Origin: Candidatus Zixiibacteriota bacterium
GTDB taxonomy: Bacteria; Zixibacteria; MSB-5A5; GN15; JACZUZ01
Direction of reading: 5' to 3'
NCBI GenBank assembly: GCA_024280835.1
Contig: JAJRPJ010000010.1
Coordinates: 124,001 to 188,000 of the forward strand
DNA length: 64,000 nt
Of the stretch, positions 30,455-38,364 are shown in pieces (positions within the stretch are counted from its first letter, which is position 1; the number at the start of each line of letters is the position of its first letter). The notes beneath the pieces were generated by a model. The model was not told where the DNA came from, made no database searches, and saw nothing but the letters and a program-made list of their open reading frames with translations. The translations under genes and the position numbers were made by a program.

Positions 30455-31249
30455 ATGAATCGTTCAGATGCAAAGAAAAGGTTCGATGGGCTAAGCCAAC
30501 AATTCGAAGCTGAGTTTTCTCCAGAAATTTTGGGTGAGACGGCCTTGCGAATTGCATGGATGGAAAGAGCTAGAAGATTGACTTCAGATGTATTTGGTCC
30601 GCAAGATGGTCTCTATTCTGAATTTGAAAAATGTGTGAATTTAAGCAGCACATATGAAAGCGTTGATGCTCATGACAAGAAAACTGTTGGTAGGCAGTGG
30701 TTTGGTGATGTTGATCAATGGCTTGATAAACTTGAAGTAAGCATAGATGTGAGTGACGTCCTATCAGACGAAAAATTCTATCAAACTAGATTGTTCACGT
30801 TGACTTATCCGCTCATTTCTGCCTTGGTCGCTGTCTTGGTTACTTTGTATTTCTCCAGCAAGCAGTTTGATTCAGAGCAGGCGCTTATTGATTCAAGGAT
30901 TGAGCAAGAAAACAAAATAGAGTTGGCGGGCGTTATGGCCGAATTCGAATTTTGGGTCAAGGGTGTGCCGCTTGATCAAGCTGACTCAGTAAGAGCGATC
31001 ACATCCGACTTTAATAGGAGGGGGATGATACAACATGGTCCTTATGTTTTGGTTTTGACAGAATGGGCACGAAGGAAGCGATTCAGCATTGATAGCGCTC
31101 GTACTTCTTATTTTGCACAAATCAATGCTTTAGGAGGAGACACTCTGAGCCTTAAAGCTCCTCACAAGCTATCATTTGACCTGATGGGTCATTTCAAGAG
31201 AATGGGGTTGACCAGGAACCTTCATGCTTATGGAGTAGATACTCTTTGA
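30455..31249 (+). CDS. Single-pass membrane protein of unknown function
   Basis: 264 residues, starting 12 bases after the ETF-QO gene. The N-terminal 110 residues are polar and charged (KKRFDGLSQQFEAEF); one hydrophobic segment follows at about 116-138 (LFTLTYPLISALVAVLVTLYF). A glutamate-rich helix comes next, then a C-terminal domain of about 100 residues with FEFWVKGVPLDQADSVRAI. I recognise no family. Base composition is more A-rich than that of the ETF-QO gene, and the gene sits at the edge of a repeat-rich stretch, so it may be accessory despite the close spacing. Confidence 0.65.
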   Translation: MNRSDAKKRFDGLSQQFEAEFSPEILGETALRIAWMERARRLTSDVFGPQDGLYSEFEKCVNLSSTYESVDAHDKKTVGRQWFGDVDQWLDKLEVSIDVSDVLSDEKFYQTRLFTLTYPLISALVAVLVTLYFSSKQFDSEQALIDSRIEQENKIELAGVMAEFEFWVKGVPLDQADSVRAITSDFNRRGMIQHGPYVLVLTEWARRKRFSIDSARTSYFAQINALGGDTLSLKAPHKLSFDLMGHFKRMGLTRNLHAYGVDTL

Positions 31250-31378: not shown

Positions 31379-31855
31379 ATGATGAAAGTAACAGCGATTA
31401 CAGTCTTGTTCATGTTGTTGGTGAGTTCAACGTTGGCTCAAAGACTCAAGAATGCTAGTCCAGACGACATGCTAACTGTTGTCGAGAAGAAGGCAATTGG
31501 GTTTGATAAGCTTACATCAGAGGAACAGGAAAACTTAAGACTTATTCTTGTCGATTCCTATGATCGAGCATATAAGGCGGGCCACCAAAAGGGGGTGGAG
31601 GATGCCATAGAATATATGCAGGGTAAATTAATATCACCTTCTGTGATTGAAACCCAAATAGAGGATGATTTCGAGGGATGGGACGGTGAAACTGTGGTGA
31701 AACTGCTCAATGGACAGATCTGGGAACAAACTGAATATTACTATGAGTATCACTACTCATTCATGCCTAACGTTCTCATATACAAGTCAGGACTCTCATA
31801 TAAAATGAGAGTTGACGGTATTGCTAAAGCTGTAGGAGTGGTTAGGTTGAAGTAA
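31379..31855 (+). CDS. Small secreted protein of unknown function
   Basis: 158 residues. MMKVTAITVLFMLLVSSTLAQ is a clear signal peptide with cleavage near residue 21 (the run is 21 residues including the Q, so described from 1 to 20 as the leader). The C-terminal 55 residues, with WDGETVVKLLNGQIW, YYYEYHYSFMP and KMRVDGIAKAVGV, form an aromatic beta-rich module that I recall from many small hypothetical secreted proteins, without known function. The middle has a YDRAYKAGHQKGVEDAIEY helix. It lies between two palindromic repeats in an accessory stretch. Confidence 0.7.
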   Translation: MMKVTAITVLFMLLVSSTLAQRLKNASPDDMLTVVEKKAIGFDKLTSEEQENLRLILVDSYDRAYKAGHQKGVEDAIEYMQGKLISPSVIETQIEDDFEGWDGETVVKLLNGQIWEQTEYYYEYHYSFMPNVLIYKSGLSYKMRVDGIAKAVGVVRLK

Positions 31856-34519: not shown

Positions 34520-34898
34520 AATATATACCCTCAGCGCCACATTCGGGCAAGTCCTACTAGCAAGATTATCGCGGAAGATTTTGCCGTGACTAGGCCTCTA
34601 TCTGCCTTTGTCTTGGCCACTTACGTCGAATCGCGCTATCTGGCCAGTTCTAGCCTTTTTCAGCTAGGTTCTCTCATCTCTATATATCGACAGCGAAGCT
34701 GAGAATCTGAGCGAAAGTTGCACAATGTGTGGGGGGTGAGACATATATTGCTTATCCTTCACGCTATTTGAGGAACCAATAAGTATCTTTAATAAAAAGT
34801 TGCTTATTAAAGAATGGGGCCCTTTCTTTAATAAGGTTTAGTAGTAATAAAGAAACTTTAATAATAAAATAAGAGTCAGTACTGGAAAATCGTCGAGA
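34520..34898. promoter_or_regulatory. mreB-fic divergent region with TCTTTAATAA operators
   Basis: 379 bases between divergent genes. The 150 bases before fic are A/T-rich and carry TCTTTAATAA or its complement at 34786-34795, 34804-34813 and 34825-34834, with an imperfect copy at 34855-34864. The middle pair forms a perfect 12-base inverted repeat (34803-34814 and 34824-34835) around TGGGGCCCT. These are strong candidate operators for a winged-helix regulator, most simply the Fic protein itself. The half nearer mreB shows nothing distinctive. Confidence 0.7.
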
Positions 34899-36062
34899 AT
34901 GAGAAGAATAACTGGTAAATACGTTTCAATATCCAGCTCAGGAGAGAAATGTGAAGCGTTTGTTCCGCAACCTCTCCCGCCAGAACCACCAGTGGTGTTG
35001 GTTGGGGAATTGCAGGAATTGCACGATAAAGCTTTGCTCGCAATCGGAAGACTAGATACAATTTCAGCATTACTCCCCGACACTTCACTTTTCATCTACA
35101 TGTACATAAGAAAAGAGGCGGTGTTGTCTTCGCAGATAGAGGGTACTCAGTCATCATTATCTGACCTTCTCTTATTTGAAAATGACGTTATGCCAGGTGT
35201 TCCAATAGATGATGTCCAAGAAGTTTCAAACTATGTTGTGGCAATGAAGCATGGACTGGAGAGGCTCGAAGAGGGCTTCCCTCTTTCCTTGCGACTGATA
35301 AAGGAAATCCATCAGCAACTTCTCAGCAAAGGTCGTGGGGAAGAAAAAAATCCTGGCGAGTTCAGAAGATCACAAAACTGGATTGGTGGAACTGGCATCA
35401 CCAATGCCAAATTTGTTCCTACTCCACCAGAGTTGGTAGTTCAACAGATGGGAGAACTTGAGAGCTTCATGCAAGAAAGAGAGTCAGGACTTTCGGTGTT
35501 AATGAAGGCTGCTCTAGTTCACGTACAATTCGAAACAATTCACCCATTTCTGGATGGAAATGGACGACTTGGGAGGCTACTTGTGACGCTAATCCTCTGT
35601 GAGGCCAAAGTACTCAATGAGCCTTTACTTTATTTGAGTCTTTATTTCAAACAGAATAGAGAGAGATACTACGAGTTATTGCAAGACGTGCGCACAACTG
35701 GTGACTGGGAAAGCTGGTTGAAGTTCTTTCTATCTGGCGCTATTGACACTGCTGAGCAGGCTGTCAAGACTGCAAAGTCTTTGGTTAAGCAGATAAATAT
35801 CGACTTGGGAGAGATACAGCAAATCTCAGGACAGATTAGAGGGTCGGCCACTCAAGTACATTTGGCGCTACAGAAACGACCCGTTATATCAATTCCAGAG
35901 CTTGCCAAGTTGTCGGCTTTGTCACAGCCAACTGTAACTTCTGCGCTCCAAAAGCTTCAACGCTCTGGAATGGTTAAAGAAATCACGGGTAAGAAGCGAA
36001 ACAAGATGTTCGTTTATGACAGCTATTTGAAGATCCTTAGCGATGGTACTGAGCTTAGCTGA
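34899..36062 (+). CDS. Fic-family AMPylase-like protein with C-terminal winged helix
   Basis: 387 residues. The Fic motif HPFLDGNGRLGR (215-226) is intact, with the catalytic His215. SSQIEG (77-82) matches the inhibitory helix (S/T)xxxE(G/N) placed N-terminal to the Fic core, a class II arrangement in which Glu81 blocks ATP until relieved. The C-terminal 90 residues (ISIPELAKLSALSQPTVTSALQKL) form a winged helix-turn-helix. Known members transfer AMP to target proteins; the target here is unknown. There is no separate antitoxin, as expected for class II. The upstream inverted repeats suggest autoregulation. Confidence 0.92.
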   Translation: MRRITGKYVSISSSGEKCEAFVPQPLPPEPPVVLVGELQELHDKALLAIGRLDTISALLPDTSLFIYMYIRKEAVLSSQIEGTQSSLSDLLLFENDVMPGVPIDDVQEVSNYVVAMKHGLERLEEGFPLSLRLIKEIHQQLLSKGRGEEKNPGEFRRSQNWIGGTGITNAKFVPTPPELVVQQMGELESFMQERESGLSVLMKAALVHVQFETIHPFLDGNGRLGRLLVTLILCEAKVLNEPLLYLSLYFKQNRERYYELLQDVRTTGDWESWLKFFLSGAIDTAEQAVKTAKSLVKQINIDLGEIQQISGQIRGSATQVHLALQKRPVISIPELAKLSALSQPTVTSALQKLQRSGMVKEITGKKRNKMFVYDSYLKILSDGTELS

Positions 36063-36105: not shown

Positions 36106-38364
36106 CTATTTTTTGCGGGCTAGCCATTCGGCGTCTACTGTGGCTATGGCGGCCATGTCTACTATCTCGGAAACTGACGAGCCGCGTTGGAGCAAGTGGG
36201 CCGATTTGTTGAGTCCCATCAGGATTGGGCCGATGACATCAGCGCCAGCGAGGCGGTGTAGTAGCTTGTAGGCGATATTGCCAGAATTCAAGTCTGGGAA
36301 GATGAAGACATTGGCTTTGCCTTTTAGTGCGCTGAACGGGAAATCTTGTTTCATAGTGTCAGGCATCATCGCTAAGTCCACTTGCATCTCACCGTCGATT
36401 TCTAGTTCAGGAGCGCGTTCTTTGACTATCGCCGTAGCACGAGCGACTTTGTCGGCTTGCTTGGAGCGCGCTGAGCCAAAGTTACTGAAGGAAAGCATGG
36501 CTACTTTGGGTGTTATGTGAAACCGTCGCGCGACATCAGCTGTCAAAAGCGCTATCTCGGCGAGTTCTTCATCGGTTGGGTCAATGTTCACCGTTGTATC
36601 GGCGAAGAAATAGACTTTGTTGTTTAGGATGACAATGTATAAACCTGAAACACGGGAGACACCTTCGCGCAAGTCAAAGACTTCAATGGCGGGGCGGACA
36701 ACTTCATTGTAATGCTTGCTGACACCGACTAGAGTTGCATCGGCGAGTCCTTCGGCGACCATCATCATGCCGAAGTAGGTGCGCGACTCTAGATTTTTGC
36801 GAACGTTTTCGAGAGTGGCGCCTTTGCGTTCACGGCGGCGCCAGAAGGCTTGGACTAAGTTTTCAGTGTGTGCGGAATCCAAAATGTCAATGACTTCAAT
36901 GTCACCTAGGTCAATTTCAAATTGTGCGGCGGCATTGCGTACGCGTTTACGTTTGCCGAGTAATATTGGGCGACAGATTCCTTCATCGGAGGCTTCAACA
37001 GCCGCGCGCATAACGCGCTCATTATCTCCTTCGGGGAAGACAATTGTTCTTTGTGAGGTTTTGGCATAACGCACCACTGGGCGCATCACTGCTCGTGAAA
37101 GTCCGATGCGCTCTTCAAGCGCTTGTTTGTATTGCTCAATGTCTACTTGGCGTCTGGCGACACCACTGTCCATTGCCGCTTGCGCCACAGAGGCTGACTC
37201 CCACATTAGAATGCGTGGATCAAATGGTTTGGGGATAATATACTCGCGTCCGAATGAGAAACGTTCGACACCATAGGCCTGAGCTACAACATCTGGCACA
37301 TCTTCTTTGGCGAGATTCGCGAGTGAATAGGCGGCGGCGAGTTTCATTTCGTCATTGATGTGGGTGGCGCTAACATCTAGAGCTCCGCGGAAAATGAACG
37401 GAAAGCCCAGCACATTATTTACCTGATTGGGAAAGTCCGAACGCCCAGTGGCGACGATTGCGTCACTACGAGCGGCAGTGGCTTGTTCGTAGGTGATTTC
37501 TGGGTCTGGATTCGCCAGTGCAAAAACCAAAGGATCTTTGGCCATCGATTTTATCATCTCGGGTGTCACTAAGTTAGCTCCCGAAGCTCCCACGAAAACA
37601 TCAGCGCCTTTTAGTGCGTCTGTGAGTGTTCTTGCCGAAGTGTCAACTGCGAATTCTTGTTTGTATTTATTCATGCCCTGTTCGCGGCCGTTGTAAACTA
37701 CGCCGCGGCTGTCACACATAAAGACGTTCTCTGGTTTGACGCCAAGTTTGCGATGAAGCCGCGCGCAAGAAAGTCCCGCGGCGCCTGCTCCAAGATAAAC
37801 AACACGGACATCGGCGATGTCTTTGCCGACGATCTCAAGACCATTCAACAGAGCGGCCGCTGAGATGATAGCTGTGCCGTGTTGGTCGTCGTGGAAAACG
37901 GGAATATCCATTTCGGCTTCAAGACGTTCTTCAATGATGAAACAGTCGGGGGCCTTTATGTCCTCAAGATTGATACCGCCAAAAGTTGGTTCCAACGCTT
38001 TAACAACCTGAATCATTTCTTCAACAGTGTGAGCATTGACTTCTAAATCGAAGACATCAATGTCAGCGAAGCGTTTGAAGAGTCCCGCTTTGCCTTCCAT
38101 GATCGGCTTTGAAGCTAGAGGGCCAATGTCGCCCATGCCCAGCGCGGCTGTGCCATTGGTAACAATTGCGACCAAATTGCCTCGGGCTGTGTATTTGTAG
38201 GCATTTAGCGGATCTTTTTGGATTTCGCGACATGGCTCGGCGACGCCTGGGGTGTAGGCGAGTGAGAGGTCTAGCTGTGTGCGGAATGGTTTTGTTGGTA
38301 CGACCTCGATTTTGCCTGGTCGTCCTTTGCTGTGGTATTCTAAAGCGTCTTCGCGTGTAATCAT
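36106..38364 (-). CDS. maeB: Malic enzyme fused to phosphotransacetylase-like domain (MaeB type)
   Basis: 752 residues, the usual MaeB length. The malic part has [42 protein letters not shown] and the NAD(P) loop [16 protein letters not shown]. From about residue 425 a phosphate acetyltransferase-like domain starts with [17 protein letters not shown] and ends [24 protein letters not shown]. It decarboxylates malate to pyruvate with reduction of NADP (or NAD). In known hybrids the PTA-like part is regulatory, binding acetyl-CoA. It converges on fic with no terminator visible. Confidence 0.96.

Follow-up and report, generated by a model that had tools for sequence, protein, structure and literature searches.

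Related anti-phage fic genes of many unrelated bacteria probably keep themselves off through evenly spaced sites before the gene

How a lone, toxic anti-phage SoFic enzyme stays silent is a question raised by a fic gene of the SoFic type in the 64-kb stretch of DNA analysed here (the window). EcSofic is a dimer whose toxicity prevented its cloning behind a single lac operator; a downstream gene encodes AS1, an antitoxin of 47 aa, and an antitoxin has been proposed to account for the silencing of SoFic (PMC12249575). The fic gene of the window, by contrast, stands by itself between mreB, which is transcribed away from it, and maeB, which is transcribed towards it, with just 43 bp between the fic stop and the maeB stop; the locus thus has no room for an antitoxin, and no antitoxin gene adjoins fic, which is flanked by maeB and mreB. 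Given the toxicity of EcSofic, tight self-repression would be sensible for such a lone gene. Kinch et al. (2009) proposed a possible role for fused HTH domains in the regulation of fic (PMC2686095), and DNA binding by SoFic was described as undemonstrated as of 2023 (PMC10628234). A family-wide operator that can be predicted from sequence would be a direct and testable answer to the question and would give the SoFic winged helix a job.

Within the window, the gene and the relevant parts of its protein were placed as follows.

34899-36062, plus strand: fic gene, SoFic type, 387 aa, sole copy in the genome
35127-35144, plus strand: N-terminal inhibitory motif SSQIEG, residues 77-82
35541-35576, plus strand: Fic motif HPFLDGNGRLGR, residues 215-226, from the sequence and conserved alignment columns
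35835-36041, plus strand: C-terminal winged helix domain, about residues 313-381, from HTH_24 and the AlphaFold2 model
35925-35963, plus strand: codons of the predicted recognition helix, residues 343-355, from the AlphaFold2 model and covariation

Pfam profiles give the domain order Fic_N (PF13784), Fic and C-terminal winged helix, the last of these matched by HTH_24 above its cut-off at residues 323-360. The Fic and inhibitory motifs agree with the definitions HPFx(D/E)GNGR and (S/T)xxxE(G/N), respectively. In the AlphaFold2 model, built from 42 sequences (pLDDT 89 overall and 92-95 in the recognition-helix block), helices at residues 332-339 and 343-355 are followed by the strands of the wing, an arrangement that points to residues 343-355 as the recognition helix. 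The PADLOC SoFic profile is the closest defence profile (2.2e-117, residues 17-381 on positions 5-359 of 361), and the NCBIfam equivalog ProtAdlyltaseSoFic (NF046030) scores 147.4 bits, below its cut-off of 550; judged by these profiles, the protein is a relative of ProtAdlyltaseSoFic and not that equivalog. Its neighbours among solved structures are the Mycobacterium marinum Fic protein 7CB8 and Shewanella oneidensis SoFic, and the fold match to 3ZCN/3EQX reaches a TM score of 0.75-0.77 on the query.

A sequence-only reading of this DNA had described three perfect copies and one degraded copy of a decamer, two of them forming a perfect 12-bp inverted repeat, upstream of a Fic protein with its own winged helix, and all of this was borne out. 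Three exact copies and one near-exact copy lie at 34786-34864, 35-113 bp 5' of the lone fic gene; the 12-bp inverted repeat consists of CTTATTAAAGAA (34803-34814) and TTCTTTAATAAG (34824-34835); and the winged helix is found both by Pfam HTH_24 and in the AlphaFold2 model. Together with its core, the repeat forms palindrome arms of 16 nt (34803-34818/34820-34835, 94% complementary) and a palindrome of 33 bp overall, and the array has a G+C content of 22% versus 46% for the window. Read as half-sites of 9 bp, the same DNA resolves into an array of five, listed here with the decamer copies and the putative promoter elements.

34786-34795, plus strand: exact decamer TCTTTAATAA, by sequence search
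34804-34813, minus strand: exact decamer TCTTTAATAA, by sequence search
34825-34834, plus strand: exact decamer TCTTTAATAA, by sequence search
34855-34864, plus strand: decamer copy with one mismatch, ACTTTAATAA
34787-34795, minus strand: half-site 1 (CTTTAATAA on the plus strand), exact
34804-34812, plus strand: half-site 2 (TTATTAAAG), exact; left arm of the 12-bp inverted repeat (34803-34814)
34826-34834, minus strand: half-site 3 (CTTTAATAA on the plus strand), exact; right arm (34824-34835); 39 bp from half-site 1
34844-34852, plus strand: half-site 4 (GTAATAAAG), degenerate (7/9), by register search and spacing mode; 40 bp from half-site 2
34856-34864, minus strand: half-site 5 (CTTTAATAA on the plus strand; the one-mismatch decamer copy); 30 bp from half-site 3
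34800-34805, plus strand: putative -35 element TTGCTT, by analogy; N17 to the putative -10 element
34823-34828, plus strand: putative -10 element TTTCTT, by analogy; overlaps half-site 3

The half-sites alternate in direction, with N8-9 between diverging and N13-14 between facing ones. Exact 9-mers recur at spacings of 30, 39 and 69 bp, to which a spacing of 40 bp is added at an 8/9 match. A scan of the window with consensus promoters found no promoter for fic. Among the sequences of 11 relatives from the same phylum, however, six (L011, L014, L015, L135, L137 and L138) show promoters, read by eye, of the form TTGNNN-N17-TATCTT/TATCCT/TATTCT, and in these six the facing pair of half-sites spans from the end of the -35 element into the -10 element; by analogy, which is not proof, TTGCTT-N17-TTTCTT in the same place of the window is the putative fic promoter. 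In 36 of 71 loci (19.2 expected), a half-site and the best sigma-70-like -10 candidate overlap; for -35 candidates the count is 18, with no excess over the 19.0 expected.

To place the array in its family, we drew loci from named genomes (the best 80 of 576 matches), from the window's own order and phylum, and from IMG/VR contigs (71 loci). Locus L084, which is the same record as L016, was excluded, as were then 7 of 170 loci with a short upstream region or an incomplete protein; removal of loci at least 85% identical to one already kept left 112, the window included, of which 63 formed a first-round training set and 49 a hold-out set fetched later. The relatives are 38-63% identical to the window protein, the distant loci L017-L039 stand outside the family tests, and start codons were taken from the alignment rather than from annotation. 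The test applied to each locus (the triple test) uses no motif: it scores the 130 bp 5' of the start for three 9-mers of alternating direction against shuffles of the same DNA. At p<=0.01, 53 of the 112 upstream regions passed, versus 1 of 105 far-upstream and none of 112 coding controls; at p<=0.05 the figures were 71/112, 4/105 and 3/112, respectively, counts in which some kinship persists even after clustering at 85%, as in the phage clade L184-L216 with its shared neighbours. The hold-out set alone gave 22/49 at p<=0.01, with 0/49 in the far-upstream and 0/49 in the coding controls. The remaining 41 of the 112 loci miss p<=0.05; half-sites are still visible in some of these (L013, L137), and none are seen by eye in others (L171). 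A simple inverted-repeat score was weaker than the triple test (27/84 at p<=0.02, a count that includes L011, L012 and L015 on the wrong strand).

The spacing of half-sites recurs as well. When same-direction pairs of 9-mers matching at 8/9 or better were counted by spacing, 44 of the 112 loci had a pair at 30/31 bp and 47 at 40/41 bp; one or the other was present in 75/112, versus 2/105 far-upstream and 8/112 coding controls, and the other spacings were nearly empty (25/26 bp, 3/112; 35/36 bp, 3/112; 45/46 bp, 1/112; 50/51 bp, 3/112). The two favoured spacings correspond to three and four turns of B-DNA and would align bound subunits along one face of the double helix. Both occur in the window, between half-sites 3 and 5 (30 bp) and between half-sites 2 and 4 (40 bp), so that the fourth decamer copy, degraded as it is, occupies a standard family-wide position, 30 bp from the third.

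While the arrangement recurs, the half-site itself differs among relatives, with TTATTAAAG, TTATTTTAG, CAAAGAAAG (in the TTTCGTTAG register), CTATTNARS and others. The exact decamer therefore fails as a family marker: it is present upstream of only 10 of the 112 loci, the window included, and the expectation that it would precede orthologous fic genes does not hold literally, although in many other orthologues the arrangement is kept with another half-site. We compared operator similarity with the similarity of each 12-residue protein segment, given whole-protein identity and with no prior for any helix. The best segment was residues 342-353 (SQPTVTSALQKL; partial rho 0.369, max-statistic p 0.001, 45 loci, 2000 permutations), with residues 347 and 344 leading individually, and this segment coincides with the recognition helix of the AlphaFold2 model, residues 343-355. 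It kept first place in the 63 training loci (p 0.001), in the 76 loci from both sets whose triples were strong (p 0.002) and in the full set of 112 (p 0.001). The hold-out set by itself, which has strong clade structure and in which operator similarity already tracks overall identity (rho 0.45 for all 49 loci and 0.34 for the 31 with strong triples), put segment 140-151 in the Fic domain at the top, and not the recognition helix. The three training loci nearest in the helix nevertheless matched the 49 hold-out operators better than the three nearest in the Fic domain (0.642 vs 0.585, p 0.0014), against a baseline of 0.530 for all training loci. The relatives thus supply naturally varied pairs of operator and helix from which recognition rules could be read. 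In the training set, a second covariation peak, near the null limit, falls on the segment with the inhibitory motif (residues 74-85; window 35118-35153) and possibly reflects clade structure.

On this comparative evidence, SoFic very probably binds, as dimers, to a helically phased array that covers its promoter, and represses its own gene. The recognition helix would read one half-site of about 9 bp (TTATTAAAG in the window); the alternating half-sites would bring same-direction sites three or four turns apart, so that subunits, as dimers, would bind cooperatively along one side of the double helix, across the -35 and -10 elements; and Fic bound to the array would block RNA polymerase, the blocked promoter in turn keeping down the level of a defence enzyme that AMPylates, is potentially toxic and has no antitoxin gene at this locus. 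Gene and operator would travel jointly between lineages, while operator and recognition helix would change jointly, and fic with its operator would make up a self-contained module able to function as soon as it reached a new host. What the computation shows is the array, its recurrence across the family, its phasing and its statistical coupling to the recognition helix; binding, dimers and purpose we infer. As for the earlier claim that Fic represses its own gene, self-binding is supported by the family arrays, the phasing and the helix covariation, all comparative, while repression rather than activation is what we infer from the overlap with the -10 element and the precedent of CccR.

A further claim, that the AMPylation state is linked to transcription, gained no support here; in CccR, a dimer-interface mutant loses repression with its toxicity barely changed (PMC9755527). 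Compared with its position in ATP-bound SoSofic, the C-terminal domain of apo EcSofic is twisted (PMC12249575), and these different orientations are indirect hints that there may be room for an AMPylation input. It seems improbable to us that, beyond its role as an operator, the array is also the antitoxin and sensor of a one-gene defence module. SoFic on the phased array would then be held inactive, its winged helix, needed for toxicity via contacts with the catalytic domain, being tied up on the DNA, and a phage that destroys, modifies or titrates host DNA would free the dimers and at once derepress the gene; if so, loss of the operator would be coupled to AMPylation-driven abortive infection.

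The sites could instead be bound by some other regulator encoded by the host, with the Fic winged helix acting inside the enzyme in folding, target choice or control of toxicity. In EcSofic, toxicity does depend on contacts that the C-terminal domain makes with the AMPylase domain, and neither 'DNA-binding' nor 'transcription' occurs in the main text of that paper (PMC12249575). We nevertheless regard a separate regulator as distinctly unlikely, as arrays stand before fic across many phyla and on viral contigs with sequences that track the Fic recognition helix, which the sites of a host regulator would not do, and as the paired form TTATTAAAG-N11-15-CTTTAATAA occurs once in the 3.31-Mb genome, at the fic array, so that no wider regulon is visible. 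Fic might also bind the array and activate its gene, or bind mainly for a purpose other than transcription, since the family test speaks to the logic of binding and not to the sign of regulation, and since the activity of CbFic2 is altered by DNA (PMC10628234). Activation is opposed by the excess of half-sites over -10 candidates, by the repression exerted by CccR (PMC9755527) and by the need of a toxic lone gene for low expression, and we hold these variants to be unlikely.

The repeats could alternatively act in RNA or owe nothing to regulation. An RNA hairpin in the fic transcript, as a terminator or leader element, is very improbable: the 33-nt palindrome folds well alone, but its fold z-score is -1.79 with 9 of 200 shuffles folding equally well, there is no Rfam match, and a hairpin has no place for three- and four-turn spacing or for coupling to a protein helix. 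That the repeats are the ends of a mobile element that carried fic in, or a product of chance in an AT-rich stretch, is hardly credible, even though the array is so poor in G+C and fic lies in a segment missing from a same-genus genome. No matching repeat lies 3' of fic, and arrays recur in relatives. With regard to chance, any 10-mer was present three times in only 2 of 2000 dinucleotide shuffles of the AT-rich stretch 34728-34898, a count not tied to the chosen decamer; for the decamer itself, which was chosen after the fact, 0.23 copies are expected in the whole 64-kb window and at least three were reached in 1 of 100 shuffles. Genome-wide (3.31 Mb) it occurs nine times, three of them at the fic array.

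In the same-genus genome (G001), which has no match to the protein, maeB and mreB are adjacent; homology ends at window position 36107 and resumes at 34728, which places fic and the array together inside a differing segment of 1.38 kb, which, with one genome compared, could reflect either gain or loss. An ORF behind mreB in that genome (L131:2296-2793) looks, by its motif, like a REP-associated transposase. Near mreB in the window, ORFs 30455-31249 and 31379-31855 have no Pfam, PADLOC or NCBIfam match.

Autorepression in type II toxin-antitoxin systems (Phd/Doc and others) likewise has a toxin-related protein limit its own transcription through multiple operator sites, but in the window enzyme and repressor domain are joined in one polypeptide, with no conserved partner gene. 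A close precedent is CccR of Yersinia pseudotuberculosis, described as a dimeric Fic protein that carries an HTH at its C-terminus and acts as its own repressor through an inverted repeat over the promoter (PMC9755527); the fic gene of the window similarly combines Fic and HTH with inverted repeats in its own putative promoter. CccR, however, protects two boxes, AGATAATCAT-N26-ATGATAATCT, whereas the window has three to five half-sites at N8-9/N13-14 with three- and four-turn phasing, and CccR, a T6SS effector, has an N-terminal part described as DUF4172-type, where the window protein has Fic_N (PF13784). SoFic of S. oneidensis and EcSofic (3EQX, 3ZCN; PMC12249575) share domain order, inhibitory motif and winged helix with the window protein. 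CbFic2 of Coxiella burnetii, a class II Fic protein with a C-terminal wHTH, binds DNA with nanomolar affinity and dimerises on it, but as described it was tested with random DNA alone and has no specific operator known (PMC10628234). In the open-access literature, to which our search was confined (subscription papers and preprints lay outside it), we came across no description of a conserved operator for fic genes of the SoFic type; autorepression by a Fic-HTH protein is already known from CccR, and a phased SoFic array that covaries with specificity was not found in print.

Across 104 loci, no conserved partner gene accompanies fic except within two phage-borne groups, L184-L216 and L160/L164/L165/L166, plus a few pairs. 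In the former, a phage or provirus clade from IMG/VR whose fic is 42-45% identical to that of the window, 17 loci share neighbours on both sides and half-sites such as CTAGTAAAG lie around a TTGACT promoter; the clade would appear to be a lysogen-borne SoFic module. Of four plasmid copies from laboratory strains, only that of S. meliloti pSymA reaches p<=0.05 in the triple test (p 0.01), the others being those of PCC 7002 (p 0.11), PCC 6803 (p 0.80) and T. thermophilus HB8 (p 0.055, on a G+C-rich repeat). In Synechocystis PCC 6803 pSYSX and Picosynechococcus PCC 7002 pAQ6 (L219, L220), ATTAACGAAA/TTTCGATAAT half-sites are visible by eye despite the failed test, and fic adjoins toxin-antitoxin and restriction genes. 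On Thermus thermophilus HB8 pVV8 (L218:1731-2426), fic shares a few bases with a DUF1156 gene and adjoins a helicase gene, a defence-like context.
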